Position numbers and translations under genes: made by a program. Below the pieces are notes generated by a model. The model searched no databases, was not told where the DNA came from, and saw nothing but the letters and a program-made list of their open reading frames with translations. Source: Thermoplasmata archaeon (GTDB taxonomy: Archaea; Thermoplasmatota; Thermoplasmata; Thermoplasmatales; GCA-001856825). From it: a stretch of 32,134 nucleotides of DNA. This document shows positions 2,754 to 13,698 of this stretch, in pieces (within the stretch, counting starts at the first letter, position 1; each line of letters begins with the position of its first letter). The stretch is taken from assembly GCA_023256615.1 (NCBI GenBank), contig JAGDXO010000054.1, positions 1 to 32,134 of the forward strand. The letters are read 5' to 3'.

Positions 2754-3398
2754 TTATATAATAGAATAAAAAAAATCTTTTGTTATTACATTAAATTTAT
2801 GTATTCTAAATGAGAAGTTTTTAATTATATCCTTTTTTATTTTCTCCCCATCTACATTGACATATGATATATAAGAAGGATCCAAGCCACAGGCTTTTAT
2901 TCGAGCAAAACCTGAAAGAACTTCCTGTGATATATTCAGAGAGAACCCATGGAATGAAATTCCATTGTTTATTGCCATTCCTATTGAGGCAACCTTCTTC
3001 CCTTGAACCCATATCCCTGGCTCATTCCCAACAGATGCCTCATAACCGTTATCTTTAAGTGAATCTATGATTATTCCTTCAACCATTTCCACATATCTCC
3101 TAACACCCCCAATTCCATTTCTTTCAAGATCTATGATTGGATATACAACAATCTGTCCAGGGCCGTGATATGTCACGTCGCCACCCCTCTCAGTTTCTAC
3201 AACCTCAACCTCCTTGTAATTCTCTGGAATACCTCCTCTACCTACTGTAAAAACAGGAGGATGTCCCATTATTAGGAGGACATCACCATAATTCCACGAT
3301 CTAATCTTACTGACTATATTCCTCTGTAATTCGAGGCTTTCTTCATATTCAAGAATTCCAAGATCAACGGCTGGATTTATAATGTAATGACTTTCCAT
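2754..3398 (-). CDS. lipB: Lipoyl(octanoyl) transferase LipB
   Basis: Transfers octanoyl groups from acyl carrier protein to the lipoyl-domain lysine, before LipA adds sulfur. From the chosen ATG the protein is about 214 aa, the usual LipB length. It shows the conserved RGGDVTYHGPGQ motif, K135 in KKVASIG, HGFSLN, and the catalytic cysteine C170 in KACGLDP; E. coli LipB uses K135 and C169. The usual PCG triplet reads ACG. The frame stays open upstream to a GTG at 3425, but the ATG at 3398 has an AGAGG site before it and gives the normal N-terminus. The gene starts inside the 3' end of the dihydrolipoyl dehydrogenase gene, so it is the last cistron of the lipA-OADHC operon. The overlap suggests translational coupling. 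A second LipB-like gene lies at 25897-26541. Confidence 0.93.
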   Translation of the reverse strand: MESHYIINPAVDLGILEYEESLELQRNIVSKIRSWNYGDVLLIMGHPPVFTVGRGGIPENYKEVEVVETERGGDVTYHGPGQIVVYPIIDLERNGIGGVRRYVEMVEGIIIDSLKDNGYEASVGNEPGIWVQGKKVASIGMAINNGISFHGFSLNISQEVLSGFARIKACGLDPSYISYVNVDGEKIKKDIIKNFSFRIHKFNVITKDFFYSII

Positions 3399-4683
3399 AG
3401 GTTGCCTCTGATGATTCCTGAACACCCTCGGATAAAGTAGGATGTGGATGGATCGTCAGACCGATGTCCCTGCTTGTCAAGCCTGACTCGACTGCCAATG
3501 ATATCTCACTAATGAGTTCAGAAGCCCTCGGGAGCACAAATGCCCCTCCTTTCACCACAAGTTTTTCATCAGTATATATTCTATAAACTCCAAGGGATGC
3601 GTTCATTCCCAGTGCCCTTCCATTTGTTGCAAGTGGTACATTTACAAAATTGTCAGTTCTTTCCCCCGTGATTGCAATTTCTGGATCTGAATATATTACA
3701 AAAGGCATAGCCTTGTAATCTATTTCATTCTCATTTCCTGATATATTATCCGCCGCTATCATGGCATCATAGAAAGCTTTGTGCGCAAGTAATGGAGGCC
3801 CGCTAATGTCCCCCACAGCATAAACTCCTTCAACGCTGGTTTTCTTTCTTTTGTCTGTTTTAATGAATTTGCCGTCCATTTCTAGATTCAAATTTTCTAG
3901 TCCGAATCCCTTTGTGTTTGGTTCTCTCCCTATTGACAGGACCACCATTTCCGCCTTTATTTCCGATCCATCTGATAGAGTCACTTTATATGAACTATCC
4001 TTCTTTACCTCCTGCACCCTCGTTGATGTCAATACTTTTATGCCAAGAGAAGAGACTTTTCTTTCCACATATCTTGTAAGATCCTGATCTATACCGGGCA
4101 GAATAGTTGGCATCATTTCAACTATAGTCACGTCGGTTCCGAGCTTTCTGAATGCCGTTCCCAGCTCTATCCCTATATAACCTCCGCCTATTATTACCAA
4201 TGATTCCGGTATATGGTCAACGTCCAGGATATCACGATTGAACATTGATGAATCCAATCCCTTTACTTTTATTGGAATAGAGCCTGTTGCTACAACAAGA
4301 TTTTCGGCAGTGTATATCTCGTTATCAACCTTCACCTTGTTTTTGTCGACGATGTAGCCTTTCCCCTTGATTACATTACCCCCATAACTTTTAACAAGTT
4401 TTTCTACACCAGATGTTAGTTTGTTAATCATACCCCATTTCCATTCCTGCCATTTTTTCATATCAATATTGAAGGATAATTCAACACCGGGCATTTCCTT
4501 AAGATAATTTATGGAATCTGCCATTTCTATGAGCGCCTTGCTAGGAATACAGCCATAATTCAGGCATTCTCCACCAATCTTATTCTCTTCAATGAGAAGA
4601 GCTTTTTTGCCGTACTGCCCTAGCCTAATGGCAGTTGCATATCCTCCTGGACCCCCACCAATTATAATTGCATCATAATCCAT
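3364..4683 (-). CDS. lpdA: Dihydrolipoyl dehydrogenase (E3)
   Basis: A 439-aa FAD/NAD(P) flavoprotein that re-oxidises the dihydrolipoyl arm of E2 and passes electrons to NAD+. Visible landmarks are the N-terminal GGGPGG dinucleotide motif (residues 9-14), the redox-active disulfide C40-x4-C45 within GGECLNYGCIPSK, a second nucleotide motif IIGGGYIGIELG, the FAD-binding AVGDI stretch, and the C-terminal catalytic pair H414-x4-E419 in HPHPTLSE. It is slightly shorter than most E3 enzymes but all active-site elements are present. Its ATG follows the E2 stop codon after 2 nt, and its own 3' end overlaps the start of lipB, so it sits fully inside the 2-oxoacid dehydrogenase operon. E3 can also serve glycine cleavage, but no such genes are in this window. 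Confidence 0.95.
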   Translation of the reverse strand: MDYDAIIIGGGPGGYATAIRLGQYGKKALLIEENKIGGECLNYGCIPSKALIEMADSINYLKEMPGVELSFNIDMKKWQEWKWGMINKLTSGVEKLVKSYGGNVIKGKGYIVDKNKVKVDNEIYTAENLVVATGSIPIKVKGLDSSMFNRDILDVDHIPESLVIIGGGYIGIELGTAFRKLGTDVTIVEMMPTILPGIDQDLTRYVERKVSSLGIKVLTSTRVQEVKKDSSYKVTLSDGSEIKAEMVVLSIGREPNTKGFGLENLNLEMDGKFIKTDKRKKTSVEGVYAVGDISGPPLLAHKAFYDAMIAADNISGNENEIDYKAMPFVIYSDPEIAITGERTDNFVNVPLATNGRALGMNASLGVYRIYTDEKLVVKGGAFVLPRASELISEISLAVESGLTSRDIGLTIHPHPTLSEGVQESSEATYGKSLHYKSSR

Positions 4684-4685
4684 AA

Positions 4686-5834
4686 TTACACCATTACTGT
4701 AACCGGAACTTCAAGATATTTTTTCACCTTTACTATGAATCTTGCTGCCATCGCTCCGTCTATCAACCTGTGATCTGCAGAAAGTGTTATGAACATATAT
4801 TTTCCATTTGGCAATTCCCTGACTCTGTGAACCCCAAGTATTGCAACTTCAGGATAGTTGATTATGGGTGTTGAAAATATTCCCCCTATAGAGCCTACAT
4901 TTGTGACTGTGAAAGTGGAGTCCTTTACCTCCTCCAACTTGAGTTTACCTTCCCTTGCCCTGGATGCAAGATCTTCAATTTCCCTTGCTATTTCCACAAT
5001 AGATTTCCTGTCAGCATTTTTTATAACTGCCACCGTTAACCCTTCCTGCGTATCGACTGCAATCCCTATATTGTAGTATTTTAGTAGCTCAAATTTTCCG
5101 TCATCCAGTGATCTGGCATTCAAGTAAGGAAATTCCTTAAGCGCAAGAACAGCTGCCTTTACGAAGAATGGCGTGAAGGAAACGTTTATTCCATTTGCCT
5201 TAAGTGTCTCCCTAATTTTCAACAATTCTGAAACATCAACTTCCTCAGCAACTGAGTAATGGGGTATTATGCTCTTTGATTTTGTCATCTTCTCAGATAT
5301 AATTCTCCTTAGACCCTTCATCTCTACAATTTCTGAATTTTTCTTAATTTCCTGAATCCTTTCCTTATTATCCACAGGAGGTGATACTTCATTGAAAGAT
5401 TCAATATCATATAGCATAATTCTACCATTGGGACCTGATCCTTTAATTCTCGTTAAATCTATACCCCTTTCTCTGGCCATTCTCCTTATGCCTGGAGGCG
5501 CAAGCACTCTCATATTTTCTTCTGATTTTGTTTCTAATTTTTTTTCTGGAATCTTATCCTCTGATTTCACCTCACTCTTGTCTGATTGAATTTCCGAAAC
5601 TCCATTGCCTATTTCTATGAGCGGTTCACCGACCCTTGCAATATCTCCTTCCTTGTGGTATATCTTTAATACCTTTCCTTCCAGGGGTGAGGGAATCTGT
5701 ACGGTTACTTTGTCAGTCATCACTTCAACAATGATCTGGTCCTTTTTGACAGTATCCCCTTCCTTTACATTCCATTTAACTATTTCTCCTTCCTGGACCC
5801 CTTCGCCTATATCCGGTAATTTGAATGTTGACAT
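4686..5834 (-). CDS. 2-oxoacid dehydrogenase E2, dihydrolipoamide acyltransferase
   Basis: The 382-aa core of the complex: it takes the acyl group from E1 on a lipoyl arm and hands it to CoA. In order it has one lipoyl domain (residues 1-80, modified lysine K42 in MTDKVTV), an acidic/lysine-rich linker, a peripheral subunit-binding domain (about 113-150, with PPGIRRMARERGID), and the catalytic domain ending in the DHRLIDG motif (H355, D359). The frame is open to 5861, but the ATG at 5834 is preceded by GAGGTGA at a proper distance and gives the typical start MSTFKLPDIGEG. It lies 10 nt after the E1 beta stop. The motifs do not decide between pyruvate and branched-chain specificity. The complex known from Thermoplasma acidophilum uses branched-chain 2-oxoacids well, so that is the favoured guess. 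Confidence 0.94.
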   Translation of the reverse strand: MSTFKLPDIGEGVQEGEIVKWNVKEGDTVKKDQIIVEVMTDKVTVQIPSPLEGKVLKIYHKEGDIARVGEPLIEIGNGVSEIQSDKSEVKSEDKIPEKKLETKSEENMRVLAPPGIRRMARERGIDLTRIKGSGPNGRIMLYDIESFNEVSPPVDNKERIQEIKKNSEIVEMKGLRRIISEKMTKSKSIIPHYSVAEEVDVSELLKIRETLKANGINVSFTPFFVKAAVLALKEFPYLNARSLDDGKFELLKYYNIGIAVDTQEGLTVAVIKNADRKSIVEIAREIEDLASRAREGKLKLEEVKDSTFTVTNVGSIGGIFSTPIINYPEVAILGVHRVRELPNGKYMFITLSADHRLIDGAMAARFIVKVKKYLEVPVTVMV

Positions 5835-5844
5835 ATTTTTCACC

Positions 5845-6810
5845 TCAATAATTAATGACACTGTTTATAGCGGCCAGAATCCTTTTTTCATCAGGTATGT
5901 AAATTTCTTCATTAACATATGGAAATGGAATGTCAGGACCTGTTACTCTCATAATAGGAGATAAAAGATACTCAATAGCCCTTTCACTTATTAGAGCGGA
6001 TATTTCTGCACCAAGGCCCAGTGTTCTTGGAGCTTCATGAACTATGATTACCCTTCCAGTTTTTTTAACTGACTTAAGTATTGCATCCAAATCCATTGGA
6101 AGAAGCGTCCTTAAATCTAGTATATCTGCATCTATATTATTTTTTGAAATGACGTTCTCAACAATTGGAACCATGCTACCATATGTTATAACAGATATGC
6201 TCCTACCCTCTTTTAATAACCTTGCCTTACCTAATTCAATCTGGTAAAGAGAGTCAGGTACCTCCATTTTGATTGAACGATAGAGTCTCTTGGGTTCCAG
6301 AAATATTACTGGATCCCCTGACCTCACTGATGAAACAAGCAATCCCTTAGCATCGTACGGATTTGAAGGTGTGACTACCCTTAAACCTGCGGTATGGACG
6401 AAATATGATTCCCCGCTCTGAGAATGATATAAACCCCCTTTTACCCCTCCACCGTAGGGTGTCCTTATTACCATGGGGACCTGGAACTGATTGCCTGTCC
6501 TGTACCTTATCTTAGCCATCTGATTTACTATCTGATCAAAGGCAGGGAATATGAAATCCTGGAATTGTATTTCTGCTATCGGCTTCAGTCCGTACATCGC
6601 CATACCTATAGCCATGCCAACTATTCCTAGCTCATTCAACGGAGTATCTATTACCCTGTTTTCTCCGTACTTCGCCTGCAATCCATCCGTTACCCTGAAT
6701 ACTCCACCATCCCTACCGATATCCTCTCCAAGGAGTATTATATCATCATCCTCTGCCATCATTGAGTACAGTGCTTCATTCATTGACTGAACCATTGTTT
6801 TGCTGCTCAT
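5845..6810 (-). CDS. 2-oxoacid dehydrogenase E1 component, beta subunit
   Basis: A 321-aa transketolase-type beta subunit. With E1 alpha it forms the thiamine diphosphate-dependent decarboxylase that acylates the E2 lipoyl arm. Family hallmarks are the N-terminal LLGEDIGRDGG segment, the TPP-site stretch with PLNELGIVGMAIG, PYGGGVKGGLYHSQSGE with the conserved histidine, and the C-terminal VHEAPRTLGLGAEI. Its ATG overlaps the E1 alpha stop codon (ATGA), and a GGAGGG site lies just upstream inside that gene, so translation is coupled and the 1:1 subunit ratio would follow. It resembles the branched-chain and acetoin types as much as pyruvate dehydrogenase, and the sequence alone does not settle the substrate. 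Confidence 0.95.
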   Translation of the reverse strand: MSSKTMVQSMNEALYSMMAEDDDIILLGEDIGRDGGVFRVTDGLQAKYGENRVIDTPLNELGIVGMAIGMAMYGLKPIAEIQFQDFIFPAFDQIVNQMAKIRYRTGNQFQVPMVIRTPYGGGVKGGLYHSQSGESYFVHTAGLRVVTPSNPYDAKGLLVSSVRSGDPVIFLEPKRLYRSIKMEVPDSLYQIELGKARLLKEGRSISVITYGSMVPIVENVISKNNIDADILDLRTLLPMDLDAILKSVKKTGRVIIVHEAPRTLGLGAEISALISERAIEYLLSPIMRVTGPDIPFPYVNEEIYIPDEKRILAAINSVINY

Positions 6811-7814
6811 AGCATATCCCTCCTCTCCTCATCCTGTATCCACAGGGTCTCTGCATAAAGATCATCAAACATTGTTGATCTATCTGGAAAACCAATTTTC
6901 CTTCTTTCTTCAACTATCTCATCCATTTCTCTCTTTGCGTCTGCTTTAATCTGACTTATTTTCCCTTCGTCCAGGATACCCATAGACAAGAGGAGGTTTT
7001 CAAGCCTTCTAATAGGATCTTTCTCGCTCCCGTCAGTAATCTCATCCACCCTGTATTTTTTTGTATCATCGGATGTTGAGTGCGGTCCGATCCTGTAAGT
7101 TACAGCTTCCAAAATGTATGGTCCTTTCCCATCTCTTATATAGTTCATTGCCTCTGTAATTCCATTTATAGAGGATAATAAATCATTGCCATCGATCCTC
7201 TTTCCCATAATCCCATAAGCTTCTCCTTTCCTGTAAATTTCTCCCTTTGTCTGTTTCTCTGTGGGGAGAGATATTGCCCAGCCATTGTTTTCGCATAGGA
7301 ATAGTATCTTTAAGTTGAATACGCCGGCGAAGTTCATGGCAGCGTGAAAATCTGAGGTTGAGGTTGCACCGTCGCCGAAATTGGCTATGACTATCCCTTC
7401 CCTTCCTTTGTATTTCAGCATGTATGCCGCACCAACTGCCAGCGGTAAGTGTGCTCCAACAGGGCTCTGAATGCTTGAAAAATTATAATCCTTGAAGGAG
7501 AAATGATCTGGCATCTGCCTGCCCTTTTGCATATCTTCCTTATTTCCCAAAAGCTGATCTATGATTTTGTCTAGAGGAATACCCCTTTGTATCAGAAGTG
7601 CGAGGTCTCTGTAGTATCCAAATATAATATCTTCCCTTCTTGCAAGCATTCCAAGTGCTACCTGAATGATCTCCTGACCTGCCGATGGCACGTGGAATCC
7701 AATTATACCCTGTCTCTGAGAGTTCACTATCTTTATATCCAGAGTTCTTGACCTTACTGCATTCCTGTACGCTTCTATAAGCTGGTCGTTTGAAATGTTA
7801 CTCAATGGACTCAT
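6807..7814 (-). CDS. 2-oxoacid dehydrogenase E1 component, alpha subunit
   Basis: A 335-aa alpha subunit of the TPP-dependent E1 component. The thiamine diphosphate signature is complete: GDGA begins at residue 147 and closes with the NN pair at 176-177, and HVPSAGQE (41-48) and GPHSTSDD mark the family. The second of these holds the HSTSDD segment at the phosphorylation loop position of mitochondrial homologues. The ATG at 7814 is preceded by a strong GGAGGG site and lies 17 bases inside the end of lipA, so lipoyl synthase and the complex are translated from one message. The GPHSTSDDxxKYR stretch is more like the branched-chain E1 alpha group than the pyruvate group, which supports a branched-chain or mixed substrate range. 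This substrate call is inference. Confidence 0.94.
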   Translation of the reverse strand: MSPLSNISNDQLIEAYRNAVRSRTLDIKIVNSQRQGIIGFHVPSAGQEIIQVALGMLARREDIIFGYYRDLALLIQRGIPLDKIIDQLLGNKEDMQKGRQMPDHFSFKDYNFSSIQSPVGAHLPLAVGAAYMLKYKGREGIVIANFGDGATSTSDFHAAMNFAGVFNLKILFLCENNGWAISLPTEKQTKGEIYRKGEAYGIMGKRIDGNDLLSSINGITEAMNYIRDGKGPYILEAVTYRIGPHSTSDDTKKYRVDEITDGSEKDPIRRLENLLLSMGILDEGKISQIKADAKREMDEIVEERRKIGFPDRSTMFDDLYAETLWIQDEERRDML

Positions 7815-8658
7815 TGTTATCCCTCCTTAATGCCCAGGCTTCAGCAGCTCTGTAAGAAGTCCTAACGAGTGGTCCTGAAGCGACAAAGGAGAAACCCATT
7901 CTGTATGCTTCTTCCTCAAGCATTTTGAATCTTTCTGCACTGCTGTATTCAAAAACAGGAAGTTGCATCTTGGAAGGTCTGAGATACTGGCCTATAGTTA
8001 CTATATCAACTCCCACATCCCTGAGGTCTCGAAGAGATGATAAGACTTCTTCATCCCCTTCACCCAGACCCAACATAATAGAACTCTTAGTTATGAAACC
8101 CTGACTTTTAATAAATTTCAATACTCGTAGGGATTGATCATATTTAGCTCTCGGATCCCTTACAAAAGGTGTCAGTCTCCTGACTGTCTCAATATTATGG
8201 GCAATTACATCCGGCCTTGCTTCACATATTGATTTCAAGGATTTTTCATTCCCCTGAAAATCAGGGATCAGAACCTCTACTTTTACCCCGGATTTTTTAA
8301 CCTCTTTTATTACATTTGCAAAATGCTGAGCACCACCATCAGGAAGATCATCCCTATCTACAGATGTGATTACAGCATATCTGAGTTTCATATCTCTGAC
8401 AGCCTTTGCGACCTTCTCAGCCTCCAATGGATCCAATGGTTCCATGTGACCGTGCGTAACAGAACAGAATCTACAATTCCTTGAACAATTTTTACCCATT
8501 ATCATAAATGTGGCAGTACCCATCGTCCAGCATTCTGATATATTTGGGCATCTGGCCTCTTCACAAACTGTATGTAATTGAAGATCCTTTACCTCTTCCC
8601 TGGTCCGGAAATAAGATTCTTCAGTTGGCAATCTCACTTTTACATAATCTGGTCTCAT
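7798..8658 (-). CDS. lipA: Lipoyl synthase LipA
   Basis: A 286-aa radical SAM enzyme that inserts two sulfur atoms into octanoyl groups already bound to lipoyl domains. Both cluster sites are visible: the auxiliary [4Fe-4S] motif C32-x4-C37-x5-C43 and the radical SAM motif C58-x3-C62-x2-C65. The C-terminal RSSY motif, which supplies a serine ligand to the auxiliary cluster, reads RTSY (266-269). The gene is first in the operon, followed without a gap by E1 alpha, E1 beta, E2, E3 and lipB, so cofactor synthesis and the enzyme needing it are co-transcribed. A TATA-like element (TTTTAAAAATA on the minus strand) is centred about 26 bp before the ATG, which suggests a leaderless transcript starting here. 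Confidence 0.95.
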   Translation of the reverse strand: MRPDYVKVRLPTEESYFRTREEVKDLQLHTVCEEARCPNISECWTMGTATFMIMGKNCSRNCRFCSVTHGHMEPLDPLEAEKVAKAVRDMKLRYAVITSVDRDDLPDGGAQHFANVIKEVKKSGVKVEVLIPDFQGNEKSLKSICEARPDVIAHNIETVRRLTPFVRDPRAKYDQSLRVLKFIKSQGFITKSSIMLGLGEGDEEVLSSLRDLRDVGVDIVTIGQYLRPSKMQLPVFEYSSAERFKMLEEEAYRMGFSFVASGPLVRTSYRAAEAWALRRDNNESIE

Positions 8659-9754: not shown

Positions 9755-11143
9755 ATGGAAAATAACGAATTGAAAATTCAAGAATTAATGAACATGGTAG
9801 AGGGGGATAGAATAGACGAAAAAATGCAATATGTGATATACAAACTTGCATCTGGATTAAAAATGACCTCATATGACGATAAGATAGTTGAGGAAATAAA
9901 TAATTTTTTCAATAATATCGGAGAGGAGGGAACAGATTTTGAGAGATATTTGGATTTCACTAAAATGAACATATTGGTCAATAATATAGATTTAGCTAAA
10001 GGATTGATAGGCGAAATTGAGAAGGAACTTGAAAAAAATTTTATGCTGCCGAATGGTGATATATTCTCTATCTACAGAGATGTGGCCATTCTAGAAGCGC
10101 TTGCCATGATGGATTCAAAGGCTCTTGACTATGTGAATGACATTCTAACTTTCTTCCCTAAGAAGGATGCGTCTATGGTTGAACCCATAACCGAACTTGC
10201 CCTCACCATCGTTGATACTATTCACCTTAATAATGGGAATTTCCACAGAACATCAATGATAAAAGAATTTTTAGCGCTTATACCTAATAAGAAAGATAAG
10301 GATTCTTTCAGAGGATCAGTTGCTAGAAAAATGGTTATGAGAGATGAATTTACATCAACACTTAATGAGAATATGATATATTTTGCCGAAAAGGAATTAT
10401 TTGAGGATATTGAAGATAAAATTGAGAAAATTTTTACTGCGTCCCAGATAGCTATTGCCAAGATTATGCTTGGAAAGATAGAGAATAATGGTAAGCTAAT
10501 AGAGGAAGGTAAAGAGATAATAGAATATATTAAGAATTCAATTCCTAAAAATTCTTCCAAAATGTTAAAGATTTTCAGGGATATAACACTGTTCAAGATT
10601 TATTTAAGGCTCGATTTGCAAGAAGAGGCAGATGTTATTCTTGAAAATATTAAATCCAAAATGGAGGAATTCTTAGCTCAGGATGGAAAAGAAAATGAAA
10701 AGGGTGGGGTAATATATTTCTTGATTTCATCATTATTTTTAAGGAAGTTTAAAAATACTTCTGATTATGAAAAAGCAAAAAAAATATCCGATTCATTCCT
10801 TGAGAAAGCTCCACAGGATGTAAAATTATGGAGTTATGTTGACATGTCAACATCCCTTGCCAAAATTGGAAAATCAGAGGAATCTTTTAAGGAACTCAAA
10901 AATGCTGAAAGTTACATTGAGTTCTTTGAAAATGATGAAAAGTCCGCTATAATAGATGACATTTTCGGGTCTGCAATTTCTGAAAATTATTTCCACACGG
11001 CCTATGAAAAATTTATTGATGAGCTCATTAAATTACTTGTTAACGTTAGCAAAGAAGAAAAGGCTGAAATTTCTTCTGAATTCTTTTACAGTCTTGCCCA
11101 GGAAGCAATAAATAAAAAAATGAGCTTATCAATTAATTTTTAA
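9755..11143 (+). CDS. Helical-repeat protein of unknown function
   Basis: A 462-aa soluble, acidic protein with no cysteine, no signal peptide and no membrane segment. I do not recognise the family. The chain is almost entirely predicted amphipathic helix, and the region about 290-420 has pairs of helices spaced like TPR or similar solenoid repeats, for example around YEKAKKISDSFLEKAPQDVKLWSYVDMSTSLAKIGKSEES split over two helices. No catalytic motif is apparent. The start ATG has a TATA-like element at the leaderless distance. The gene ends 45 bp before the riboswitch-like leader at 11189, which has its own promoter, so the two are probably separate units. A scaffold or regulatory role is only a guess. 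Confidence 0.75.
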   Translation: MENNELKIQELMNMVEGDRIDEKMQYVIYKLASGLKMTSYDDKIVEEINNFFNNIGEEGTDFERYLDFTKMNILVNNIDLAKGLIGEIEKELEKNFMLPNGDIFSIYRDVAILEALAMMDSKALDYVNDILTFFPKKDASMVEPITELALTIVDTIHLNNGNFHRTSMIKEFLALIPNKKDKDSFRGSVARKMVMRDEFTSTLNENMIYFAEKELFEDIEDKIEKIFTASQIAIAKIMLGKIENNGKLIEEGKEIIEYIKNSIPKNSSKMLKIFRDITLFKIYLRLDLQEEADVILENIKSKMEEFLAQDGKENEKGGVIYFLISSLFLRKFKNTSDYEKAKKISDSFLEKAPQDVKLWSYVDMSTSLAKIGKSEESFKELKNAESYIEFFENDEKSAIIDDIFGSAISENYFHTAYEKFIDELIKLLVNVSKEEKAEISSEFFYSLAQEAINKKMSLSINF

Positions 11144-11153
11144 TTTTTTATTT

Positions 11154-11167
11154 AGAAAGTTATTTAT
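11154..11167 (+). promoter_or_regulatory. BRE/TATA promoter of riboswitch leader
   Basis: AGAAAG followed by TTATTTAT gives a BRE-like purine run plus TATA box. The centre lies about 26 bp before G11189, the first base of the P1 stem of the riboswitch-like RNA, so the transcript would begin at or just before the aptamer. Confidence 0.55.
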
Positions 11168-11188
11168 TCTTATTGGAAATAGTAAAAT

Positions 11189-11256
11189 GGAGATGGAATC
11201 CTCCTGGTAAAGAACCAAACCTCCCGCTAGGGATGATGATTCCTTTTTAAAAGGTG
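11189..11256 (+). ncRNA. Fluoride (crcB-motif) riboswitch candidate
   Basis: The leader shows the architecture of the fluoride riboswitch. P1 is GGAG (11189-11192) with CTCC (11201-11204), closing an 8-nt loop ATGGAATC. Six loop bases, GGAATC (11195-11200), form a pseudoknot with GATTCC (11238-11243). The linker ends in the conserved AAAC (11217-11220), then P3 TCCC/GGGA (11222-11225, 11230-11233) with loop GCTA, then TGATGA, matching the family's GAUG...AAAC...UGAUGA..CC order. An extra small hairpin (TGGT/ACCA, 11205-11217) sits between P1 and AAAC and is atypical. The 3' strand CCTT (11242-11245) can instead pair with the Shine-Dalgarno AAGG (11251-11254), which predicts translation ON with ligand. 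It precedes two tiny ORFs, not a known exporter. Recognition is by eye, without a covariance search. Confidence 0.75.
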
Positions 11257-11262
11257 TTTCAT

Positions 11263-11388
11263 ATGTATGAGAAGGAAATAGAAGAAAAAGAAGGGAGGGT
11301 TAAATTACTCAAAAATAAAATAAGTCAGGCTAAAATACACAATAAAATTTTGACTGAATTGGCAAAAAATTGTGATGAAAATGAGTGA
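11263..11388 (+). CDS. 41-aa ORF directly under riboswitch
   Basis: A small ORF, MYEKEIEEKEGR... to ...CDENE, starting 6 nt after an AAGGTG Shine-Dalgarno that is part of the riboswitch expression platform. The product is a highly charged lysine/glutamate-rich single helix with possible coiled-coil character, no membrane segment and one cysteine near the end. It matches no family I know and does not resemble the fluoride exporters Fluc/CrcB or CLC-F. Its last codons overlap the start of the next small ORF in a different frame, so the two are translationally coupled or, less likely, joined by frameshifting. The placement and the good ribosome site are the main evidence that it is real. Confidence 0.6.
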   Translation: MYEKEIEEKEGRVKLLKNKISQAKIHNKILTELAKNCDENE

Positions 11389-11584
11389 TGATAGGGAAAA
11401 ACTTATAAGAGTTTGGCAGCTTGATATGGAAATAGCATCCTTGACATACAAATATTTTGAGCTGTATTCAGATAATAAGAATTTATCTATGAAGCTTTAT
11501 GGATGCTTTGCTAGAAAAAAGAATATTCCCAGGGAGGGTGTTTTGGACATAATGGATCATTATGTATTTGGGAAAGAATTTTAA
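11375..11584 (+). CDS. Small protein (about 69 aa), second ORF under riboswitch
   Basis: A small soluble ORF overlapping the end of the 41-aa ORF. Three start codons are close together (GTG 11372, ATG 11375, ATG 11381); I chose the first ATG, and ATG 11381 within ATGAGTGATGA is equally plausible. The product has aromatic-rich helical segments (VWQLDMEIASLTYKYFELY and LSMKLYGCFARKK), one cysteine and no membrane span. I do not recognise the family. No separate Shine-Dalgarno is clear, so expression probably depends on coupling to the upstream ORF and hence on the fluoride-type riboswitch. It ends 12 bp before the stop of the convergent 286-aa gene. Joining it to the first ORF would give a protein of about 110 aa, so an ancestral fusion or a frameshift cannot be excluded. 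Confidence 0.65.
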   Translation: MKMSDDREKLIRVWQLDMEIASLTYKYFELYSDNKNLSMKLYGCFARKKNIPREGVLDIMDHYVFGKEF

Positions 11585-11596
11585 TGGTTTTCACTA

Positions 11597-12457
11597 TTAA
11601 TATTGAAGACTTTGGGAATGTGCAATCCTTAGATTCTTAACTTTAGCCTTTTTAATTTGGAGCAAGAATGTATTCATATAATCTTCCTCCATTCTCAAAA
11701 ATAAGGAGCATATGTGATCTTTCCTCTGGATCATCATTTCTAGTGGTGCCTTATGAATCGATTCCCACGCTCTATTAATGGCATTAATAACCTCCGAGAT
11801 TTCAGATCTTCCATCATAGCTCATTAGGCCTTTCTCAGTTATTATATCAAATTTTCCTGATTTCCCCGGGGTAATTTTAACTAAACCCCTTTCAATTTCA
11901 CAGTCAGAGTCAAATTCTATTTCCATGTTGTTTACCTTTATATTACCTCCATAGGATTTTATAAAATCTCTAATGCCTCTGGCTTCGCCATAATAATCTA
12001 TTTTGAAATAATTAGGTATCATTTGGCTATTTATAACAGAATTCATAAAAATCAACCTGTCTGATACACTCTTCTCAGAACTTGACGAAAATTGAAAAAA
12101 CCTGAAAATCCGCCCCTTCCAGTAAAGGTTGAATGGTGCAAATAGTCCCATCTCAATCTTGTCTAGTGATGTGAATTCATTATTTTCCTGCAATGACTTA
12201 ATTTCCAATACCTTTGGTTTAAAGGCGAACCAGATTCCATACTCTTCTTCTTTGAAATTTATTCCATTCTTCTTAAGCAAGAATTTAACAGATTGATACT
12301 TGGGATTATCTTTAATGATTGAACCTACCTGATTGGAAGTTTCATATTCTCTATAATAAATGGATATTGTCTCCTCGAAACCACGAAGGAAATACAGATC
12401 TTCCCCCGCATCATACGAATATATAACCTCCTTGTCCAGGAAGAAATTTTCCTGCAT
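11597..12457 (-). CDS. Hypothetical protein, 286 aa
   Basis: A soluble protein of mixed alpha/beta character with no signal peptide and no clear membrane helix. I do not recognise it. The N-terminal part is rich in aromatic residues and short strands (FFLDKEVIYSYDAGEDLYFL), the middle has LFAPFNLYWKGRIFRFFQF, and a beta-rich segment follows with GGNIKVNNMEIEFDSDCEIERG-type strands broken over two repeats. The C-terminus is a charged helix, KKAKVKNLRIAHSQS. A GGAG Shine-Dalgarno stands 8 nt before the ATG, with a TATA-like TTTATTTAG farther up at about 12491, so unlike many neighbours it has a leader. It converges on the riboswitch-controlled small ORFs. No function can be assigned. Confidence 0.72.
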   Translation of the reverse strand: MQENFFLDKEVIYSYDAGEDLYFLRGFEETISIYYREYETSNQVGSIIKDNPKYQSVKFLLKKNGINFKEEEYGIWFAFKPKVLEIKSLQENNEFTSLDKIEMGLFAPFNLYWKGRIFRFFQFSSSSEKSVSDRLIFMNSVINSQMIPNYFKIDYYGEARGIRDFIKSYGGNIKVNNMEIEFDSDCEIERGLVKITPGKSGKFDIITEKGLMSYDGRSEISEVINAINRAWESIHKAPLEMMIQRKDHICSLFLRMEEDYMNTFLLQIKKAKVKNLRIAHSQSLQY

Positions 12458-12697: not shown

Positions 12698-12772
12698 AGC
12701 GGGGTGGGGTAGCCAGGAAATCCCGACGGGCTCATAACCCGTAGACCGGTGGTTCAAATCCACTCCCCGCTA
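12698..12772 (+). tRNA. Initiator tRNA-Met (CAT)
   Basis: A 75-nt cloverleaf: acceptor AGCGGGG/CCCCGCT, a D-arm with GGG/CCC, anticodon stem ACGGG/CCCGT with anticodon CAT at 12733-12735, and T-arm GGTGG-TTCAAAT-CCACT. The A1-U72 end pair and the three consecutive G:C pairs at the base of the anticodon stem mark it as the initiator, not the elongator. No intron is present and CCA is not encoded. The membrane-protein ORF starts 5 nt after the discriminator base. Confidence 0.95.
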
Positions 12773-12777
12773 TTATT

Positions 12778-13698
12778 ATGGATAAACAACGATCAGCGGA
12801 TGCCTTCCCGGCGATATTCATAGTTCTGTTGATAGCCCTGTATGTGATTATGAAGTTAGGATTTTATACTTATTACCAATTTTATATCTATCTGCTGATT
12901 TTGATACTGGAAGCTATTTCAATAATGTTCTCTAATTATGGAACATTCGTGTCGTCAGTCCCATATATTTTGCTAATGCTTGAAAGGGTAAAATATTATA
13001 TTCCTTCGCTTCCCCTCAATGATGTAATTTTAATGGCAATAATCTCCTTTCTCTTAGTCCCAACCAGAATTTTTATGAAAAGAGGAAATTTATCTTCTTT
13101 CATTTCATTTTCTTTAATTAGTATACTTTATTTCTTCTTGAATTTTTCAATATATTCTCATTACACATATTATTTATTATTCATTATAGGTATATTTATA
13201 ATAAGTTATTTTCTTTCGGCTAAGAGCGACGCTTTTGTCTCATATTTGATTTCATTCTTTTTAATAACATCTTTGGTGTCCATTCCATCAATTTACATCA
13301 ATAATATTCTCAACATGAACTTTTATTCAATGCTTGATATATCATCTATTGTCATTTTACCTATTTCTCTAATAGTTTTTCTACAGGATTCACTGTATGA
13401 CAAAACTTTACCTTATACTGGAATAATAATTTCTGGATTATTCTTAATCTCATTTTATTTCTTTGAAATCAATTTTATAATTTTTACGTTGTTGATATTG
13501 GCAATCGCAGTTATAATTCCAATTGTCTTAAAAAAATTATTTTACAGTCATGACGCAGATATCAGCTTTTACGGTCTTGTCCTAATATTTTTTGTTAAGT
13601 TTTTCCCATTTAACAAAACATTTTACCTTTTATCATTCCTATTATCATTTATAATATTTTATATAACTATTAAAAAAATAAAAAAATCAAATAAATGA
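12778..13698 (+). CDS. Polytopic membrane protein of unknown function
   Basis: A 306-aa, very hydrophobic protein with roughly ten to twelve predicted membrane helices, beginning at residues 12-29 and running almost without soluble loops to a lysine-rich tail (KKIKKSNK). I recognise no transporter or enzyme family and see no conserved charged motif inside the helices. The ATG lies 5 nt after the 3' end of the initiator tRNA. The stretch that would hold a TATA box for a separate start is the T-arm of the tRNA, so the gene is probably co-transcribed with the tRNA and released by 3' tRNA processing, giving a near-leaderless mRNA. The 3' end overlaps the convergent oxidoreductase beta gene by 12 bp. 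Confidence 0.75.
   Translation: MDKQRSADAFPAIFIVLLIALYVIMKLGFYTYYQFYIYLLILILEAISIMFSNYGTFVSSVPYILLMLERVKYYIPSLPLNDVILMAIISFLLVPTRIFMKRGNLSSFISFSLISILYFFLNFSIYSHYTYYLLFIIGIFIISYFLSAKSDAFVSYLISFFLITSLVSIPSIYINNILNMNFYSMLDISSIVILPISLIVFLQDSLYDKTLPYTGIIISGLFLISFYFFEINFIIFTLLILAIAVIIPIVLKKLFYSHDADISFYGLVLIFFVKFFPFNKTFYLLSFLLSFIIFYITIKKIKKSNK

Follow-up and report, generated by a model that had tools for sequence, protein, structure and literature searches.

What does a fluoride riboswitch control when it stands in front of two very small open reading frames? The usual targets of this RNA class are the CrcB/Fluc and CLC-F exporters (PMC11139923). A preliminary description of the archaeal DNA considered here, a stretch of 32,134 nt that we refer to in its entirety as the window, had placed a fluoride riboswitch upstream of two tiny, unassigned ORFs, followed by a gene on the other strand, and had proposed that the small proteins may be a new fluoride-response module. 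We found no exporter gene of the CrcB/Fluc or CLC-F type behind the riboswitch of the window.

The window RNA belongs to the fluoride riboswitch class

A cmscan search of the window against 4227 Rfam families returned only two matches in all 32 kb, a tRNA and the fluoride riboswitch RF01734. The latter is a full-model match at positions 11180-11252 of the forward strand with a score of 44.0 bits (E = 3.4e-9), above the Rfam gathering score of 34 bits, and it is the single RF01734 copy in this 1.2-Mb genome (84% complete). The structural elements listed in the preliminary description are all present on re-reading the sequence, each on the forward strand. P1 is formed by GGAG (11189-11192) and CTCC (11201-11204), which enclose the loop L1 (ATGGAATC, 11193-11200); within this loop, GGAATC (11195-11200) provides the 5′ strand of a 6-bp pseudoknot whose 3′ strand is GATTCC (11238-11243). 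P3, consisting of CCC (11223-11225) and GGG (11230-11232), follows AAACC, and TGATGA (UGAUGA in the RNA) occupies 11234-11239. The two P3 strands are paired in the Rfam alignment; in our own alignment, the P3 columns are out of register in many rows. The window RNA thus has in common with the crcB motif its full-model match, P1, the pseudoknot, P3, AAAC, UGAUGA, and its place 5′ of a start codon. Its small coiled-coil-like targets, the proposed masking of the Shine-Dalgarno sequence by the pseudoknot strand, and an insert set it apart. The insert, specific to the family of the window (f1), lies between P1 and AAACC (11205-11217) and appears as an insertion in the Rfam alignment; its UGGU and ACCA could pair as a small extra hairpin, and a short hairpin is possible in several f1 leaders.

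A putative TATA-like promoter element (TTATTTATT, 11160-11168) is located ~25 nt 5′ of P1, and the AGAAAG before it is a possible BRE. Downstream of the pseudoknot, a Shine-Dalgarno-like AGGTG (11252-11256), complementary to the 3′ end of 16S rRNA, precedes ORF1. The region just 5′ of the riboswitch is occupied by a gene for a 462-aa protein (9755-11143) with no significant match to a Pfam family. Farther upstream, on the reverse strand, positions 3364-8658 hold a single run of apparent 2-oxoacid dehydrogenase complex genes together with a lipoyl-synthase-like gene, as read from their sequences.

Riboswitch leaders and their targets in related genomes

Among the 61 nearest genomes, 46 have an RF01734 copy; across the archaeal order compared, probably Thermoplasmatales s.l., the count is 91 of 117. 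We read 63 of these leaders together with the genes that follow them. Three kinds of target account for the set: a NuoH-like membrane subunit (29 leaders; PF00146 at 2.8e-30 in one example), a coiled-coil pair homologous to the two ORFs of the window (24 leaders), and a MutS-like ATPase (10 leaders; PF00488 at 2.1e-23 in one example). The order riboswitch-ORF1-ORF2 is thereby found in 24 genomes of three families (11 in f1, 2 in f3, and 11 in f4). In one f1 genome, G003, two consecutive MutS domain V matches lie behind a single riboswitch (contig C48, 1620-2042 and 3134-3613).

For covariation, we used a set of 24 leaders, of which 20 precede the pair, 3 a NuoH-like gene, and 1 crcB. In this set, pairing holds in 99.0% of cells for P1 and in 100% for the pseudoknot, and changes on both sides are seen in 8 of the 10 base pairs of P1 and the pseudoknot (5 of 6 for the pseudoknot itself). 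The covariation score of the whole structure is 0.488, which falls to 0.18 or less when the partner is shifted by one column. The preliminary description had proposed a covariance-model search, a look at stem conservation in relatives, and a search for the same leader-ORF pair elsewhere; all three gave positive results, and the fluoride riboswitch call agrees with every available sequence test. The RNA is, on this evidence, a further representative of the known class RF01734. A TATA-like element is found 26-35 nt 5′ of P1 in 20 of the 24 leaders of the pair, a position from which transcription would probably begin at the aptamer.

ORF1 and ORF2 are conserved genes

Only two small ORFs lie 3′ of the riboswitch, both on the forward strand: ORF1 (11263-11388; 41 aa), a coiled-coil-like protein, and ORF2 (11381-11584; 67 aa, or 69 aa from an alternative in-frame ATG at 11375), a helical protein whose start overlaps the stop codon of ORF1 at ATGAGTGA. 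As the preliminary description had it, the gene that follows (11597-12457) lies on the opposite strand. Beyond it, at 12698-13698, a tRNA gene (RF00005) is followed by a gene for a polytopic membrane protein of 306 aa that has no Pfam family.

The "tiny unknown ORFs" proved to be conserved. Profile A1 finds ORF2 of the window with E = 1.7e-21, and below E = 1e-20 it detects ORF2 in 28 genomes from families f1, f3, and f4. Homologs of ORF1 occupy the same place in the 24 genomes with the riboswitch-controlled pair, and profiles A1 and A3, the alignments, and the loci agree that an ORF1 with a homologous core lies directly 5′ of ORF2. The two genes overlap or adjoin in most homologous loci. In size, the pairs range from about 41 + 66 aa in f1 to about 115 + 132 aa in f4. 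ORF1 homologs share a short coiled-coil core, and the ORF2 alignment centers on a core resembling (E)IASLxFEYxxILxxNRxLAxxLxG, followed by a C-terminal helix with an invariant tyrosine. Between closely related genomes, dN/dS values of about 0.1-0.4 indicate purifying selection. ORF1 and ORF2 are, judging from this conservation, real genes and a conserved riboswitch target. A pattern scan of genome contigs with ORF2 returned one short clostridial stretch, which we judged spurious, and a relationship between ORF1 and ORF2 as mutual paralogs is unsupported (hhalign probability 0.6%).

The predicted structure of ORF2 from the window consists of two helices (residues 2-46 and 54-63; pLDDT 92.8), for which Foldseek returned nothing significant. 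Comparison of ORF1 and ORF2 with Pfam, NCBIfam, and PDB sequences gave generic coiled-coil matches only and no family, and neither protein matches an exporter family. Both lack membrane segments and are therefore not exporters on their own. We consider it probable that ORF1 and ORF2 work together in a heteromeric coiled-coil complex.

The pair extends beyond riboswitch control

Of 400 genomes of the class searched with a wider profile, 71 contain ORF2, and 65 of the 71 belong to this order. In f1, f3, and f4, the riboswitch almost always precedes the operon. Homologous pairs without a riboswitch occur in family f6 and in genus g4 of f1, and a comparison of coordinates showed no RF01734 5′ of the pair in f6 or in the f1 genomes G003 and G005. 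The protein pair is thus, as its distribution indicates, broader than its fluoride control, which has been gained or lost by lineage, and fluoride may play no part in its basic function. The idea of a new fluoride-response module holds in part: the regulation is well supported and the leader-pair arrangement recurs in 24 genomes, but the switch-free pairs of f6 and f1-g4 mean that the pair cannot be regarded purely as a fluoride module.

The switch-free pair often lies 3′ of an RPA operon or beside gyrB. In f6, it is found directly 3′ of two RPA-type OB-fold genes at loci L134, L135, L144, L145, L152, L106, and others, and it adjoins gyrB at L136, L121, and L105. Some f4 genomes carry a second coiled-coil pair directly 5′ of the riboswitch that has no RF01734 of its own (G017, L095 4684-5383; also G027, G032, and G054). 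We left other neighbors out of the module. The MFS transporter and cation-efflux genes beside the pair in G017 and G021 are absent there in G024, and the CLC gene beside it in G003 and G005 is divergently transcribed and not general.

The long f4 versions of ORF2 offer a further clue. In their model (pLDDT 81), two extra strands and two helices look like a ribbon-helix-helix (RHH) domain. The likeness is weak in sequence (phrog_3887, 2.7e-5; PSK_trans_fac, 9e-4 at best) and in fold, with CopG, VapB, AmrZ, and KacA among the Foldseek matches, all at E > 1. RHH regulators such as CopG, VapB, AmrZ, and Rv0623-like proteins have a strand-helix-helix N terminus like that of the long f4 ORF2, whereas this domain is missing from the window proteins; the model of the window ORF2 shows its two helices (2-46 and 54-63) and nothing else. 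Because of the RHH-like N termini in f4 and the RPA and gyrase neighbors in f6, a nucleic-acid-associated or regulatory factor is the likeliest role for the pair, an assignment that we make with low confidence.

These observations bear on a different reading, in which the pair has a general housekeeping role, for example in DNA maintenance or chromatin, and its level is merely raised under fluoride stress in some lineages. The order-wide spread of the pair, its switch-free copies behind RPA and near gyrase genes, the second switch-free copy in f4, and the presence of mutS-like genes among the other targets of RF01734 make this a serious possibility, one that nonetheless falls short of probable given that the operon in f1, f3, and f4 is nearly always under riboswitch control and is the sole target found in genera g1-g3 of f1.

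A putative translational ON switch

The sequence of the leader suggests how the RNA could act. The 3′ strand of the pseudoknot may double as an anti-Shine-Dalgarno sequence: in the ligand-free model of the window, it forms a hairpin with the Shine-Dalgarno region (CCUUU/AAAGG). As long as fluoride is absent, this strand, which ends in UUCC(U), would pair with the Shine-Dalgarno sequence; in its presence, the same strand would be held in the pseudoknot, leaving the ribosome site free. RF01734 would thereby exert translational ON control over the two-gene operon, and the two small helical products would be made when fluoride enters the cell.

The pseudoknot strand differs among the families (GAUUCC in f1, GGCUCC in f4, and AACGCC in f3), and, together with the U 3′ of it, this strand can base-pair with the Shine-Dalgarno region in 23 of the 24 pair leaders; the hairpin is missing from the G001 leader. 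On average, 5.0 of the 6 nucleotides of the strand are paired, compared with 2.5 when the spacer is shuffled, a comparison among phylogenetically related leaders. For most single leaders, the shuffle p-values lie between 0.03 and 0.5 (0.1 for the window). Since these individual values are weak and the leaders share ancestry, it is the recurrence of the pairing with three different strands that counts, a pattern that fits a translational ON switch, the most likely mechanism.

Control could instead be transcriptional, with an archaeal U-tract terminator at 11244-11248 ending transcription unless fluoride holds the pseudoknot. A T5 run does lie directly 3′ of the pseudoknot strand in the window, f4 leaders have a T4 run, and most of the bacterial fluoride riboswitches studied are transcriptional according to two reports (PMC11077080; PMC2864571). 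We nevertheless consider this mechanism unlikely because the T run is absent from f3 and from most other f1 leaders, in which the Shine-Dalgarno pairing is kept, and because the sole archaeal fluoride riboswitch tested, that of Thermococcus kodakarensis, is presumably translational according to PMC8241225, which cites Speed 2018. Intrinsic termination as a mechanism shared by all leaders was set aside, as the T run is not conserved. The NuoH-like leaders of f4 (L005, L013, L032, and others) present a separate arrangement: the region of their ribosome site repeats the 3′ strand of the pseudoknot, TGACGCC. L1 could pair with either copy, making a decoy-strand switch possible in these leaders.

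That the window RNA is a variant sensing a ligand other than fluoride is very improbable; the f1 RNA does have its extra insert between P1 and AAACC, but the GAUG, AAAC, and UGAUGA core is strongly conserved, the full model scores 44 bits, and RF01734 precedes crcB in another genome of the set (G095). The notion that the ORFs are not genes and that the switch is either a relic or the leader of a noncoding transcript, suggested by their extreme shortness and by the lack of a convincing relative in the contig scan, can be dismissed for practical purposes, given homologous pairs with intact frames behind the riboswitch in 24 genomes, the dN/dS values, and the coupled start and stop codons.

Discussion

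We consider it likely that RF01734 switches on translation of the pair in response to fluoride, and that the products are small helical proteins, probably heteromeric, which belong to an inducible fluoride response. The T. kodakarensis riboswitch is a close parallel, as it is archaeal, of the same class, and presumably translational; it controls fluoride export genes according to PMC8241225, whereas the window operon contains no exporter, and compared with CrcB/Fluc and CLC-F the pair is soluble and helical. The mutS and formate hydrogen lyase genes noted downstream of the crcB motif in 2010 (PMC2864571) involve the same RNA in the same order, and correspond here to the 10 MutS-like and 29 NuoH-like targets among 63. 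The window genome has no such riboswitch-type copies, and the pair stands in their place. We found no description of the coiled-coil pair as a riboswitch target in the literature searched; as far as could be checked, it is a third kind of target, new for this class.

The gene content of the genome gives this placement its interest. No CrcB (PF02537) was found in this genome, although at 84% completeness an exporter may have escaped detection. Its CLC protein is encoded on another contig, unlinked to the riboswitch. CLC-F proteins differ from ordinary CLC proteins at the GREGP motif, and the CLC of this genome has the ordinary motif; CLC proteins are common outside f4. The genome encodes one normal NuoH, with no riboswitch-type NuoH-like gene found and no MutS domain V protein detectable. 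Within f1, riboswitch-linked NuoH-like and MutS-like genes were encountered only in G003, whose own pair is switch-free, and the pair is therefore the only riboswitch target seen in g1-g3. Because the pair comprises the only riboswitch-controlled genes found in this genome, it is probably the inducible part of its predicted fluoride response.

Control of the small proteins by a fluoride riboswitch is thus well supported by the sequence comparisons, and a role for them as a fluoride-defense module is plausible. A stronger version would make the soluble coiled-coil complex of the two proteins a riboswitch-induced factor dedicated to fluoride tolerance, operating without a dedicated exporter and accounting for the whole inducible response of one family; we regard this tentative proposal as less likely than not.

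At low pH, fluoride reaches the cell interior as HF, and the order is known for its acidophiles. CrcB scores above the cut-off in only 3 of its 117 genomes; in G095, crcB lies directly behind an RF01734 copy (L116, 1907-2402) and serves as a natural positive control. The order is thus nearly devoid of CrcB, yet 91 of the 117 genomes retain the riboswitch, which makes riboswitch-controlled genes the best pointers to fluoride tolerance in these archaea. The coiled-coil pair is the smallest of these targets and the sole one found in most of the family of the window, and it hints at a previously undescribed way of coping with fluoride without a dedicated exporter in this archaeon and its closest relatives.
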